From a virus: a DNA stretch of 29,208 nt. The stretch lies in the IMG/VR virus record IMGVR_UViG_3300037189_010305, positions 1-29,208 of that record; one strand, given 5' to 3'. The position numbers and the translations under genes are program-made. The notes under the pieces were generated by a model, which was not told the DNA's origin, ran no database searches, and saw only the letters and a program-made list of their open reading frames with translations. The first letter of the stretch is position 1. The number at the start of each line of letters is the position of its first letter. This document shows, piece after piece, positions 7,567 through 21,837 of this stretch.

Positions 7567-8402
7567 TGGCGATTGAGTTCGTAGGAGGGGCCATAGCCGA
7601 GCGGTTGGCCACTGGCATATTCGATCCCAGCTTTGACATGCCGCTCGACTCCGGGCTGACAGGCGGCATTGCGTCTTCTGTTGAGGATGGAGACTATGTT
7701 GTTGCTGTGTTTGCGACGGGTTCCACGGCCGACAGAACGCTTTATATCGGAGACGGAACGGACCCCTACCCTTTGCTTGGCAGTGAACTTTATGCAAACG
7801 ACACACTCGACGTTAATCTTCGGGTTGGCGCGAAGTTCGTTGATGGAGACACAATTGTAGAATTTGGGCCAACTGGAAGCACATCTGATCCGGGCGTAAC
7901 AGCGCTTTATGTGTTTCGCGGGGTTGACCCAGTGACACCGCTCGATGTGTCCGTGGTCACGGCAACCGGGACAAATTCCGGGTTGGCAAATCCACCAGCC
8001 ATCACGCCAATCACATCAGGGGCATTCATTGTCGCATTGGGCGCCGGTCATCTGAGCGGGAATATAGGCAATCCGGCGAACTTTTCGTCATCTGATCTGA
8101 CGGACTTTTTCCAAGAGTATCACCCAGAAACCAACGATATCACCCTCGGCATCGGGCACAAGCCCGACTGGGTAAGCGGATCATTCAACCCGGCAGCCTT
8201 CACAAACTCACTTAGCGACAGCACAAGCTATTCGTGGGCAGCCATGACAATTGCGCTTCGCCCCGCAGTCGGCGGCAACATCAAGGTGTGGAACGGCACT
8301 GCCTGGGTGGCGAAGCCAGTGAAAGTCTGGAACGGCAGCGCATGGGTCGCGAAGCCGGTGAAACGCTGGAACGGCACCGCCTGGGTCACCACGACATATT
8401 GA
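7566..8402 (+). CDS. Putative fibre or receptor-binding protein with WNG(T/S)AW repeats
   Basis: This 278-residue protein starts at the ATG overlapping the previous stop (TAATG, 7564-7568). The first 235 residues are beta-rich, full of Gly, Thr and Asp, with no enzyme motif that I recognise. The end holds three 13-residue repeats (KVWNGTAWVAKPV type), a tryptophan-rich element common at phage fibre ends and probably involved in carbohydrate contact or trimer capping. The gene is visibly richer in A/T than its neighbours, as is common for exchangeable receptor-binding genes. Function is inferred from position and composition. Confidence 0.6.
   Translation: MAIEFVGGAIAERLATGIFDPSFDMPLDSGLTGGIASSVEDGDYVVAVFATGSTADRTLYIGDGTDPYPLLGSELYANDTLDVNLRVGAKFVDGDTIVEFGPTGSTSDPGVTALYVFRGVDPVTPLDVSVVTATGTNSGLANPPAITPITSGAFIVALGAGHLSGNIGNPANFSSSDLTDFFQEYHPETNDITLGIGHKPDWVSGSFNPAAFTNSLSDSTSYSWAAMTIALRPAVGGNIKVWNGTAWVAKPVKVWNGSAWVAKPVKRWNGTAWVTTTY
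8283..8399 (+). repeat. Three tandem 39-bp coding repeats (WNG(T/S)AW)
   Basis: Units 8283-8321, 8322-8360 and 8361-8399 encode KVWNGTAWVAKPV, KVWNGSAWVAKPV and KRWNGTAWVTTTY. The period is exactly 39 bp and the frame is kept, so unit gain or loss would preserve the reading frame. The stop follows directly at 8400. Confidence 0.85.
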
Positions 8403-8419
8403 GCGATTGAGAGGAACGG

Positions 8420-8791
8420 ATGTCCGCCATTCAGGAAACACCGAAAAAGAACTTCTATGTGCACCGCGGGGCCCCGGACCCGATCATCGTGCGCTTTCGC
8501 GCGGGCGGACCGGACGGCACGCTTGTCGTCTTCGACAACTCGCTCAAGTTCCAGTACGTCAACGCCAGCGGCACGGTGACGCTCGGCGTCGGCAGCGGCA
8601 TCACGCTCTCGGCGGACGAGACGATCGCCGATGCCCGCGCCACGATCCAGCTGTCCGTCGCGCAGAGCCGCCAGATCCCAAAGGGCGCGGTCACGAAATA
8701 CGAAATTCAGCGCACCGTGAGTGGGCGTGACGAGGTGTTCTTGATGGGCATGCTGATCGGTGCAGGCGGAGATAATCCCGATGCCGCGTGA
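8420..8791 (+). CDS. Small structural protein of unknown function, fibre region
   Basis: This 123-residue protein follows a GAGAGGAACGG ribosome binding region. It has an N-terminal [15 protein letters not shown] segment and alternating hydrophobic and Thr/Val-rich strands that suggest an immunoglobulin-like or baseplate-accessory beta fold. It ends with [22 protein letters not shown]. Such a gene often precedes the collagen-like fibre gene in phages of this type. I do not recognise a named family; a tail or fibre attachment role is inferred from position. It overlaps the next gene by 11 bases. Confidence 0.6.
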
Positions 8792-18437: not shown

Positions 18438-18738
18438 TTGCTCTTGCCTCCTCAATGGCATCCACCAGCATCGCGCTGATCATCATCTCGATGGGAACTC
18501 CCTGCGCCTGAGCCTCTTCGTTGAGCCAGCGCACATGATCCTGAGACAGGTCGTAGACCTTCAAGACCGCCCGCTTCCGCCGGACGGCATATTCCGAGAC
18601 GTGCCGTTTCAGGCATTTCTGCACATTGGACGCGGTGCACCCGATCCGCCGCGCGATCTTCGATAGTGACCTCTCGCCGCCGCGCCACAGCGCGATGATG
18701 TCGTGCGCTCTGGTCTCCGACTTGAAATAGCGTTTCAC
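18430..18738 (-). CDS. HTH DNA-binding protein
   Basis: In this 102-residue protein, residues about 8-45 (AHDIIALWRGGERSLSKIARRIGCTASNVQKCLKRH region) form a clear helix-turn-helix like those of sigma-factor region 4 or Trp repressor-type proteins. The second half (LSQDHVRWLNEEAQAQGV and the following helix) looks like a ribbon- or helix-type dimer segment. It is probably a transcriptional regulator or a small DNA-binding accessory of the left operon. It is coupled by ATGA to the HD gene upstream. Confidence 0.7.
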   Translation of the reverse strand: MKRYFKSETRAHDIIALWRGGERSLSKIARRIGCTASNVQKCLKRHVSEYAVRRKRAVLKVYDLSQDHVRWLNEEAQAQGVPIEMMISAMLVDAIEEARAND

Positions 18739-19322
18739 TGAGCGTCCTCGATCAGGTCGGGCGGCGGCCCGATCTCGCGCTGCAGGCGCTCAAAGGTCGC
18801 GAGGAACATTTCCTCCGACTTGTCGGCGTTGCGCGGCTTGATGGCAAAAGGTGCAGCCTGGACGGACGTAGGGCAGGGGCCCTGCATCAGGTCGCGCCAT
18901 TCGGCGGCGAACACTGCCGCGTCGGCCGTCTTCACCCATGCGAGCGCGCCGAGGCTGGCGCTGTGCCAGACACGAAAGGCTTTCAAGATCGCGGCGTCCA
19001 GGCGGTCGGCGATGCTGAGAACTAGGTCCGTGCCCGCGTGGGCCATGATCACCTTGCGCAACGGCGTGGTGATATCGCCGATGTAGGCCTCATGGGCATC
19101 GTGCAGCAGCCCAAGCATCAGCATGGCGGGCGGCGCTTTCTTCATGGACATGAATCGCACCACGTTCAGCGAGTGGTCGGCGACGTTGAGCGGCAGCATG
19201 GTTGCACCGCAGAACCTGTTCAGGCGCGAGAGGGAACATGCGATGTCATGGATGTCGATCGTGGATGGATCCGGGTCCGAAAGAGACACGACTCGGCCGG
19301 AGCGCGCGGTGATGAAACTCAT
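18735..19322 (-). CDS. HD-domain phosphohydrolase (YfbR-like)
   Basis: This 195-residue protein has the HD superfamily residues: His50 (VADHS), His74-Asp75 and His77-Glu78 in LLHDAHEAYIGD, and Asp133 further on. The N-terminal FITARSGRVVSLSDPDPSTI with IHDIACSLSRLNRFCG is standard for phage-encoded HD hydrolases related to the 5'-deoxynucleotidase YfbR. These enzymes act on nucleotides, and phages may use them to adjust dNTP pools or to remove nucleotide signals. It is the second gene of the early left operon, and its ATG overlaps the upstream stop. Confidence 0.85.
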   Translation of the reverse strand: MSFITARSGRVVSLSDPDPSTIDIHDIACSLSRLNRFCGATMLPLNVADHSLNVVRFMSMKKAPPAMLMLGLLHDAHEAYIGDITTPLRKVIMAHAGTDLVLSIADRLDAAILKAFRVWHSASLGALAWVKTADAAVFAAEWRDLMQGPCPTSVQAAPFAIKPRNADKSEEMFLATFERLQREIGPPPDLIEDAQ

Positions 19323-19473: not shown

Positions 19474-19502
19474 ACAATACGGAACGTATTAACTTATGTC
19501 AA
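19474..19502 (-). promoter_or_regulatory. Early left promoter (PL-like)
   Basis: On the minus strand TTGACA (complement of 19497-19502), 17 bases, then TATTGT (complement of 19474-19479). The -35 is perfect and the spacing ideal. Two operator palindromes overlap the -35 and -10 elements. It should drive the HD-to-integrase operon and be shut off by the repressor. Confidence 0.8.
19476..19490. promoter_or_regulatory. Left operator 1 (AATACG-GAA-CGTATT)
   Basis: This is a perfect 6+3+6 palindrome covering the -10 element and spacer of the left promoter. The same sequence occurs in the repressor/cro intergenic region, so it is a probable binding site for the repressor and Cro. Confidence 0.8.
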
Positions 19503-19515
19503 TACGAAACGTATC
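19501..19515. promoter_or_regulatory. Left operator 2 (AATACG-AAA-CGTATC)
   Basis: This palindrome has one mismatch, in the outermost position. Its centre is 25 bp from left operator 1, and it touches the -35 of the left promoter. The 25-bp spacing is the same as in the right operator region. Confidence 0.78.
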
Positions 19516-19876
19516 ATGGCGTAAGCCGGTTCAATGCCGCCTGCATATCCATAGAGGATTCTGAATTGTTGATCGGGGTAACCTTCTCGAAGGCGCTGCC
19601 GCCGTTGGACACCAGCACCAGATCGCCGACAACGCGTGTCTGGTGTTTCACCGGGATCACGGTAAACGTGGCCCGAACGTCAACCGTGGGATCGTAGGTT
19701 GTGCCCAGAAGCATGTTCGCCGTCTGCTTTGTGATCGTGTACTGCCGGTTCACCAGCTCGGTGAGCAGGGCAGACTGAACCCTGTCGGGTGGGGCATTGA
19801 AGGTGCGCTCGGCTTTCTGGCTTGGCGTGTTATGCTGCACCTGGGCCGCGCAGCCTAACGTGAGAAGCCCTAGACA
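19514..19876 (-). pseudogene. Lipoprotein-like gene lacking start and signal-peptide beginning
   Basis: The frame ending at 19514 reads, from just after an in-frame TGA, LGLLTLGCAAQV and then about 105 further residues of a mixed alpha/beta protein (DRVQSALLTELVNRQYTIT, TRVVGDLVLVSN). TLGC is a lipobox and the residues before it look like the end of a lipoprotein signal, yet no ATG, GTG or TTG lies between the TGA and the Cys. The only start is GTG 19840 after the lipobox, giving an unexported 108-residue product. It begins inside the 3' end of the repressor gene, so a recombination junction probably removed the 5' end. The position downstream of the repressor, as for lambda rex, suggests expression in lysogens. 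Confidence 0.6.
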
Positions 19877-20520
19877 TCACGCTTGTAGATAGCGATAACC
19901 CGGCCAAGAATGCTGACCTCGACCTCGCGGTTTCCGTCGTCCAGCCGCAGCGGCGTCTGCCAGCGGGGATCTGATGACTCTGGCCATAGTTGCCATCCCT
20001 TCTTGCTTTGCCGGGCGCGTTTCAAGGTGACTTCGTAGGTAGTGCCGCGTTGCCGCTTCACGACTAGCAGGTCTTCATCCTTGATCTCGGCCCCCATGTG
20101 TGACCAGTCGGCGACGATAACATAGTCCCCTGGTTGTGCAACCTTGTTCATTGACGTTCCGACAACCTTGAGCGCGTACTGGCGGCAATGCACCCAGCGG
20201 CTGTCTGGTGCAACGGGTATGTGCTCGAGAATTTCCTGGTCGCCATCGATTTCGAGCCATGATCCAGCCCGCACTTCGCCCACCACGGCGATCTGCGGCG
20301 GTTCGTTTGCGTGTTCCTGCCCTTTCCCGAACAGGAGCCATTCAGGCGATGTGTGGAAGAACCGGGCGTACCTGATGGCGTCTTGCTCATCAAAACTCCT
20401 GCTGCTGTTCTCATGGGACGTAAGAGTCGGGATTGCCATGTTCATGGCCCGTGCGGCCTCGGCGGCGGACTTGTAGCCGGCCTGTTCCCGGGCGCGCCGC
20501 AGTCTCTCGTGTTTTTCCAT
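19870..20520 (-). CDS. CI-like repressor with S24 (LexA-type) peptidase domain
   Basis: This 216-residue protein keeps the lysogenic state by binding operators and is inactivated by self-cleavage after DNA damage. The N-terminal HTH (AAEAARAMNMAIPTLTSHEN, residues about 19-38) binds DNA. The probable cleavage point is Ala85-Gly86 in VGEVRAGSW. The catalytic dyad is Ser123 in GTSMNKV and Lys155 in LLVVKRQ, as in LexA and lambda CI. ATG 20520 follows GGTGGGGA at the right distance; longer readings run into the operator region. It is transcribed away from cro and is probably autoregulated through the operators at 20544-20608. Confidence 0.9.
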   Translation of the reverse strand: MEKHERLRRAREQAGYKSAAEAARAMNMAIPTLTSHENSSRSFDEQDAIRYARFFHTSPEWLLFGKGQEHANEPPQIAVVGEVRAGSWLEIDGDQEILEHIPVAPDSRWVHCRQYALKVVGTSMNKVAQPGDYVIVADWSHMGAEIKDEDLLVVKRQRGTTYEVTLKRARQSKKGWQLWPESSDPRWQTPLRLDDGNREVEVSILGRVIAIYKRDV

Positions 20521-20541
20521 GTCCCCACCCTGCCGAGTGAC

Positions 20542-20570
20542 TGAATACGAAGGGTATTGACTGCAGCCAA
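20542..20570 (-). promoter_or_regulatory. Repressor promoter (PRM-like)
   Basis: On the minus strand TTGGCT (complement of 20565-20570), 17 bases, TATTCA (complement of 20542-20547), with the repressor ATG 22 bases further on. The element overlaps the opposite-strand cro promoter almost completely, so the two polymerases compete. It is covered by the first operator and part of the second. Confidence 0.6.
20544..20558. promoter_or_regulatory. Right operator 1 (AATACG-AAG-GGTATT)
   Basis: 6+3+6 palindrome with one mismatch at the innermost pair. It overlaps the -10 of the repressor promoter and the first base of the cro -35. Confidence 0.78.
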
Positions 20571-20585
20571 TACGTGTCGTATTGA
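20557..20585 (+). promoter_or_regulatory. Early right promoter (PR-like)
   Basis: TTGACT (20557-20562), 17 bases, TATTGA (20580-20585). It should drive cro and, past the terminator, the CII/GcrA/replication operon. Operator 20544-20558 reaches the -35 and operator 20569-20583 fills the spacer and -10. Confidence 0.78.
20569..20583. promoter_or_regulatory. Right operator 2 (AATACG-TGT-CGTATT)
   Basis: Perfect 6+3+6 palindrome, or 7+3+7 including the flanking C and G. It lies between the -35 and -10 of the cro promoter and abuts the repressor -35. Its centre is 25 bp from right operator 1. Confidence 0.82.
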
Positions 20586-20593
20586 TCTGGGGC

Positions 20594-20608
20594 AATACCA
20601 ACGAGAGC
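20594..20608. promoter_or_regulatory. Right operator 3, degenerate half site (AATACC)
   Basis: Only the left arm is recognisable. Its centre would fall at 20601, again 25 bp from the preceding operator, so a weak third site is plausible. It lies just upstream of the cro start. Confidence 0.45.
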
Positions 20609-20614
20609 GCGGTC

Positions 20615-20806
20615 ATGACGGGAGACGACATTCGCCAGATAAGGGCCGCTCGGGGCTGGTCCCAGCGACAGCTTGGCGAGCACCTCGGCATCGAGCAGGC
20701 GACCATTTCCCGGCTTGAGAATGGAGAATGGAAGCCTTCGCGGCCCGTTCTGCGCCTTCTCGAAATGCTGAAGGCTGCCGACAGCTCATCGCCCGAGGCC
20801 GCCTGA
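20615..20806 (+). CDS. Cro-like HTH regulator
   Basis: This 63-residue protein is almost entirely one XRE-type helix-turn-helix (IRQIRAARGWSQRQLGEHLG, then EQATISRLENGEWKPSRP). It diverges from the repressor across the operator region, which is the place and size of Cro. It probably shuts off the repressor and later the early promoters. ATG 20615 is 30 bases after the -10; the ribosome binding site is weak (GAGAG). The stop overlaps the next ATG (TGATG). Confidence 0.85.
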   Translation: MTGDDIRQIRAARGWSQRQLGEHLGIEQATISRLENGEWKPSRPVLRLLEMLKAADSSSPEAA

Positions 20807-21357: not shown

Positions 21358-21837
21358 ATGACACAACCAAGACCTCCCCTTGAACTGAAAGCCTTCTATC
21401 GGGACCTGGTGATTGCCTGCGGCGGGCCGAAGCGCGCCGCCGAGATCACGGGCGGTCAGGCGTCTCACATCTCTGAAGCGATGGCGGCCCACCATCTGGA
21501 CCGCTGGCCGCGCATCGATCAGGTCGCCCTTCTCGAGGCCGACTGCGGGCAGCCCATCGTCACGGCGGCGCTTGCCGACCGCAGCGGCTACTCCCTGAAC
21601 TCCGTGACCGCGTCCGACGCGAACATCTCGCCGCTGGCCCACCTGCACCGCATCGTGTCGGAGGTGCGCGACGTCGAGTGCGGCATCCTCCATGCCATGC
21701 AGGACGGCCAGCTGACGGCCGCCGAGCGCCGCGACACCCGCCGCCAGGTGCAGGAAGCGATCGCCGCGCTCAACGCGCTGTGCGCCGACCTCATCGACAC
21801 CGCTGCCGTCGCGCGCGTCGTGAAGCCGGGGGCGTGA
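21358..21837 (+). CDS. CII-like regulatory protein
   Basis: This 159-residue protein has an N-terminal HTH-like part (LKAFYRDLVIACGGPKRAAE, ITGGQASHISEAM) of the kind annotated in alphaproteobacterial phages as CII-type or YdaS-like regulators, followed by helical segments to the end. The position (after cro and its terminator, first gene of the replication operon) matches lambda cII. It may activate establishment of lysogeny, but that is inferred from place. AGGAA lies seven bases before ATG 21358. A longer reading from 21109 crosses the terminator and is rejected. Confidence 0.65.
   Translation: MTQPRPPLELKAFYRDLVIACGGPKRAAEITGGQASHISEAMAAHHLDRWPRIDQVALLEADCGQPIVTAALADRSGYSLNSVTASDANISPLAHLHRIVSEVRDVECGILHAMQDGQLTAAERRDTRRQVQEAIAALNALCADLIDTAAVARVVKPGA

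Follow-up and report, generated by a model that had tools for sequence, protein, structure and literature searches.

What kind of regulatory region is built around the palindrome AATACG-N3-CGTATT in the virus record IMGVR_UViG_3300037189_010305, and which of the phage's proteins reads it? We analysed the entire IMG/VR virus record, 29,208 bases in length and referred to here as the window, and believe, with a probability of about 0.8, that this part of it (Table 1) serves a temperate, lambda-like phage as its immunity region, in which a repressor would act on palindromes at both OL and OR, the latter condensed to just two operators; a reading drawn from the DNA itself and from its comparison with related loci.

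Paired palindromes and the genes around them

The window contains four copies of the palindrome, two of them perfect and two with a single mismatch, arranged as two 25-bp pairs; one pair is located on the leftward early promoter, the other on the promoters of the repressor and Cro genes, such that the same type of operator is found at both OL and OR, as two palindromes each. Our scan recovers all four at the centres given in the preliminary description, and their frequency is far from random: elsewhere in the 29.2-kb record there is no further site with two or fewer mismatches, chance alone being expected to supply a mean of 0.005 sites with up to one mismatch and 0.22 with up to two (200 dinucleotide shuffles). 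With three mismatches permitted the motif ceases to be rare (5 matches against 3.7 expected), and the meaningful class is therefore that with one mismatch at most. A motif-agnostic scan for equal palindromes paired 20-29 bp apart likewise returned these two pairs only, with none of equal score in 60 shuffles. We also considered the palindromes as terminators; the one weak hairpin (20554-20573) is no better than those that shuffled sequences yield.

Table 1. Promoters, operators and genes of the region, in order along the window
Feature	Position	Strand	Sequence	Remarks
Deoxynucleoside monophosphatase-like (phrog_318)	18735-19322	-		first recognisable gene of the leftward operon
Leftward early promoter, PL	19474-19502	-	TTGACA-17-TATTGT	10/12 consensus matches
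OL operator at PL -10	19476-19490		AATACGGAACGTATT	perfect; centre 19483, -16 from inferred PL start
OL operator at PL -35	19501-19515		AATACGAAACGTATC	1 mismatch; centre 19508, -41 from inferred PL start
108-aa ORF between repressor and OL (lambda rex position)	19514-19840	-		no family match
Repressor (CI/LexA-like)	19870-20520	-		helix-turn-helix + Peptidase_S24
Putative repressor promoter, PRM	20542-20570	-	TTGGCT-17-TATTCA	inferred start 20535; weak -35
OR operator B	20544-20558		AATACGAAGGGTATT	1 mismatch; centre 20551; holds PR -35 and PRM -10
Lytic promoter, PR	20557-20585	+	TTGACT-17-TATTGA	inferred start 20592
OR operator A	20569-20583		AATACGTGTCGTATT	perfect; centre 20576; holds PR -10 and start of PRM -35
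Claimed third (half) site	20594-20608	+	AATACCAACGAGAGC	probably chance
Cro-position XRE helix-turn-helix protein (HTH_31)	20615-20806	+		63 aa
CII-like activator (PF06892, phrog_101)	21376-21837	+		

The left and right promoters, PL and PR, are as originally described, hexamers, strands and 17-base spacers included. Each operator pair is laid out upon them in the same manner, with one operator ending in the -35 element (TTGAC) and its partner in the -10 (TATTnn); because these elements form the operator ends, the centre-to-centre distance equals the sigma-70 spacer plus 8. The 25-bp spacing is ordinary promoter geometry (spacer 17 + 8) and no separate property. In L005, a second phage contig found via the paired operator pattern, the spacing is 24 and the spacer 16 bases, and in the relatives introduced below the spacings run to 24 (17 cases), 25 (10) and 26 (1) among 28 distinct ORs, and to 24 (14), 25 (10), 26 (2) and 23 (1) among 27 OLs. 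Of the 'constant 25 bp' that had been claimed, we retain that both pairs in the window have this spacing; the constancy falls away (two pairs in the window; 23-26 bp in relatives), and with it the idea of a special 25-bp phase, as the spacing tracks the promoter spacer. A weaker, rightward promoter-like site (TTAACT-17-TATCAT) is also found at OL (19489-19517, plus strand), aimed at the repressor operon from its 3' side.

The repressor matches Peptidase_S24 (E 5e-11), HTH_31/HTH_3 and phrog_4 'transcriptional repressor' (E 5e-20), and its AlphaFold2 model (mean pLDDT 89.4) has phage 186 CI, LexA and lambda CI as its top PDB matches. All 22 of 22 aligned repressors share Gly86, Ser123 and Lys167, and Ala85 is nearly invariant among them; following established knowledge of S24 repressors, we take Ala85-Gly86 to be the cleavage site and assign Ser123 and Lys167 their usual roles. 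Sequence and model together predict a self-cleaving repressor of the S24/LexA type with an N-terminal helix-turn-helix. Divergent cro-like and CII-like genes lie on the opposite strand to the repressor, and the leftward operon starts beyond OL. The open frame of the ORF at the rex position runs on upstream to about 19870 through the lipobox-like LLTLGCAAQ; by eye, this extension has no usual start codon before the stop. The whole window repressor found no relative when searched against viral contigs, nor did the window Cro protein, as query, find a phage match.

Relatives and the probable reader of the operators

Relatives were retrieved by repressor sequence alone, and the presence of operators was therefore not selected for. 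An operator pair of the form RATACN5GTATY is found upstream of the repressor in 31 of the 55 loci examined, 28 of them distinct (three duplicates being removed before counting), with an OL pair also present in 27 of the 28; related phages do, then, bear the same paired operators. For clarity, L034-L036 and L043 are the same contigs as L019, L016, L018 and L005, and L059, L063 and L081 the same as L048, L051 and L047, the OR of L051 being counted through L063; L012, L014, L015, L017, L049 and L050 are uncounted, there being no repressor of the window's family in the stretch examined. Pattern matches L006-L009 and L013, with neither a paired site nor a repressor of this family, were set aside as chance, and a search with a second helix alignment (A2) brought no additional loci. 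In the genome collection searched, the paired pattern occurs in 8 places, with both OL and OR alongside a repressor in L010 (Jiella avicenniae) and L011 (Sphingomonas liriopis); within the two orders to which these belong (396 and 397 genomes searched) it is found in none of the 791 genomes besides those two. Relatives of the L018 helix among phage records (5 records) are phages of Synechococcus, Microcystis, Caulobacter and Rhizobium. On the basis of the relatives' named hosts and the Jiella avicenniae and Sphingomonas liriopis loci, the host is probably alphaproteobacterial.

The helices of pair-bearing loci read TLTSH, TYTSH, [T/A]YTHH, AYAHH, [A/G]YRHH or TYRAH. The 24 loci without the pair mostly have other helices (e.g. 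TYIQHEN, TYKSHEN, NVYKAHES), and several of them carry palindrome pairs of another kind, similarly spaced, of which some clearly exceed what shuffles yield and others do not. Repressors with other helices are found in L026-L033, L038, L040, L042, L044-L046 and L077-L080; some of the palindrome pairs in such loci, identified partly by eye, are of the TGCA-, GGTAC- or ACACG-type, again at similar spacing. Loci of this sort are material for a wider helix-to-operator code.

Within the 28 distinct loci, Arg at helix residue 34 is accompanied by an outer G in the operator in 19 of 19 cases, and Thr or Ala in 0 of 9 (outer G counting as present when one or more of the three half-sites scored has it); as most Arg34 loci belong to a single group of relatives, these counts exaggerate how many independent events they represent. 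Nor can residue 34 by itself account for specificity, because there are loci that deviate: in L020 (TYAHH) and L076 (AYRHH) the helix matches but the repressor has no operator pair beside it, and in L026, L028 and L029 Arg34 follows Thr-Tyr, yet the operator is of a different type.

At the Cro position, the window, L010 and L021 encode an XRE protein and most other loci a YdaS-like protein with a VRQWRNRG motif; of two such proteins scanned, one gave a PF15943 match, and that a weak one. The proteins found there in L005 (8497-8703), L018 and L019 are unrelated to that of the window, in loci where the operators are the same.

Since the operator covaries with the recognition helix of the repressor, the repressor is very probably what reads the palindromes; and since the operators remain constant while the type of Cro switches, the operator follows the repressor helix and not Cro, whose binding to the palindromes is unsupported by these comparisons. 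The palindromes do flank the Cro gene and sit on its promoter, as they might if Cro, or another phage protein, were their reader in place of the repressor; we nevertheless consider this highly improbable, as the operator sequence tracks the repressor's recognition helix even where Cro is swapped for an unrelated fold, and as L005 keeps the window's operators and recognition helix with a different type of Cro and a different C-terminal domain in its repressor. The L005 repressor (7970-8425, minus strand) has no S24 domain and no Pfam match at all, and its induction must therefore differ.

A two-operator OR and how it would work

The preliminary description placed a third, degenerate half site at OR, centred on 20601. 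This did not survive closer inspection: 5 of 6 bases match in one half and almost none in the other, an equally good match is found at the right distance in ~2% of control positions, and it recurs in 2 of the 28 ORs; we therefore reject it as a conserved operator. A search of both sides of the 28 ORs finds a good third site on the repressor side in five (L034-L036, L067 and L052; two or fewer mismatches, 24 bp from operator B, a match seen in ~0.2% of controls), hence such a site is not general; as these sites lie on the repressor side, some relatives do appear to have a three-site OR, in the orientation of lambda. Their existence, and the fact that three sites can be drawn in 25-bp steps, lend something to the suggestion that the window itself has a lambda-type OR of three operators, the third being the half site at 20601, and that CI and Cro read the sites in opposite orders. 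This is nonetheless unlikely, given that the third site of the relatives is on the repressor side and that of the window on the Cro side, as a single, unconserved half, and given that relatives sharing these operators have, in place of this Cro, a YdaS-like protein unrelated to it. Our reading remains that the OR of the window has two full sites; of the 'complete lambda-like switch with its own operator' first proposed, anatomy and comparison uphold a switch with its own OL/OR operator, whereas its OR has two operators, not the three of lambda.

The two OR sites differ in sequence. In operator B the half on the TTGAC side reads AATACC in place of AATACG, as it does in 24 of the 28 ORs (the remaining 4 being without an AATACC half), with C found in the equivalent half of OL in 2 of 27; after clustering of helices at 70% identity, the counts become 11 of 15 ORs versus 2 of 14 OLs (Fisher p 0.0025). 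L010, L011 and L021 were found via an operator pattern that fixed GTATTGAC but not CC; with these and the window removed, 20 of 24 ORs still have the CC half, against 1 of 24 OLs. The asymmetry was noticed before it was tested, as an unlogged prediction, and in 15 distinct ORs seen later it holds for 14, their OLs giving 0 of 15. As the change is kept with either kind of Cro, we read it as one that weakens operator B for the repressor.

To compare positions, promoter starts were set at 7 bases after the -10 in lambda and the window alike, with lambda operator positions taken from the lambda record. Under this rule OR1 and OR2 of lambda lie at -17 and -41 of PR, and OR2 and OR3 at -42 and -19 of PRM; in the window, operator A lies at -16 of PR and -41 of PRM, and operator B at -41 of PR and -16 of PRM. 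Operator A thereby takes the position of OR1 (relative to PR) and OR2 (relative to PRM), and B those of OR2 and OR3; with its centre 41 bases before the start inferred for PRM, A supplies an operator close to -42, a location that would allow activation by CI. PRM itself is deduced from poor hexamers (TTGGCT, TATTCA), and over the 28 ORs the mean number of -35 consensus matches is 4.9 of 6 for PR and 3.0 of 6 for PRM; a good -35 in the one and a poor -35 in the other are what would be expected if PRM needs help from repressor at -41.

We envisage that dimers of the S24 repressor would occupy the two OL and two OR palindromes, turning off both PL and PR and keeping the prophage silent until DNA damage causes LexA-type self-cleavage of the repressor, and with it induction. 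Operator A would block the -10 of PR and, from its location at -41 of the weak PRM—the activating position of lambda CI—could also stimulate synthesis of the repressor; operator B, lying over the PRM -10 and weakened by its conserved base change, we infer to fill second, after A, and so to limit that synthesis.

Because operator A overlaps PR and also touches PRM, CI might do no more than shut off the two promoters. Binding of the repressor to either site of OR would then block both together, its level being set through negative autoregulation and CII-driven transcription with no activation of PRM; the inferred starts of PR and PRM are 57 bp apart and have the same 25-bp core in common, such that RNA polymerase and CI would be in competition throughout; PRM has a poor -35, and a CII-like protein is encoded. 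We regard such a purely repressive switch as a serious if somewhat doubtful possibility: the place of A, at -41 of PRM, is that of the activating site in lambda, and an OR-specific weakening of B makes sense mainly if A fills alone. The window repressor does not evidently keep the acidic patch through which lambda CI activates; from alignment by eye, we take its Arg24 to stand at the position of lambda Asp38.

Known switches and the meaning of a condensed OR

The lambda-like features that we tested were all found save for three OR operators, and the system with A as an activating site would appear to work like lambda's switch. Common to both (lambda cI, cro, OL and OR) are the gene order, a repressor of the S24/LexA-type, one operator type at OL and OR, operators spaced by 23-25 bp and located at -41/-42 and -16 to -19 of the promoters, and a PR -35 that overlaps an operator end. 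Lambda differs in having three OR operators to the window's two, an unrelated operator sequence and PR and PRM starts that are 83 bp rather than 57 bp apart; and for the window there is no evidence of Cro reading the same sites.

CP-933P PaaR2/YdaS/YdaT is a lambdoid immunity region with a CI analogue and with YdaS as Cro analogue, in which equally spaced palindromes lie over PRM and PR, and in which PaaR2 represses PR at low level, with activation of PRM possible (PMC8630535). The YdaS Cro analogue is a point of likeness to most of our relatives, with their YdaS-like proteins in the Cro position, whereas the four 18-bp repeats (consensus GTTTAGTAA) of the CP-933P intergenic region mark a different operator, used by a different repressor (PMC8630535). 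The CI-MOR systems of TP901-1 and S. aureus phage 13 resemble the window in their compact cI region, divergent promoters and few CI operators, and differ in that their three operators, OR, OL and OD, stand separately and not as pairs at promoter spacing, and in having a CI-MOR partner (PMC8516035). Synechococcus phage Ssp-JY40 (PP438430; host as annotated) has the same type of switch, with the repressor helix GYRHHEN and paired GATAC/AATAC operators at both OL and OR; it differs in its YdaS-like Cro and GATACG-type operators, and the stretch of its record that we examined carries no operator annotation. Our search of the open-licence literature, which covered the operator sequence, the immunity regions and operators of phages, and those relatives that have names, found no description of this operator.

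We would put at about even odds that these loci represent a widespread, undescribed class of switch, with a condensed two-operator OR whose operators serve double duty on overlapping, opposed promoters, a filling order set by one conserved base change, and a helix code (Arg34 to outer G) that predicts immunity groups. For uncultured temperate phages the operators are seldom known; in these loci, many related records let helix and operator be read side by side, and groups of superinfection immunity could be predicted from sequence (repressor helix plus operator). If the two-operator reading is true, the region would offer a simpler, natural version of the lambda switch, with which to test the number of operators needed for stability.
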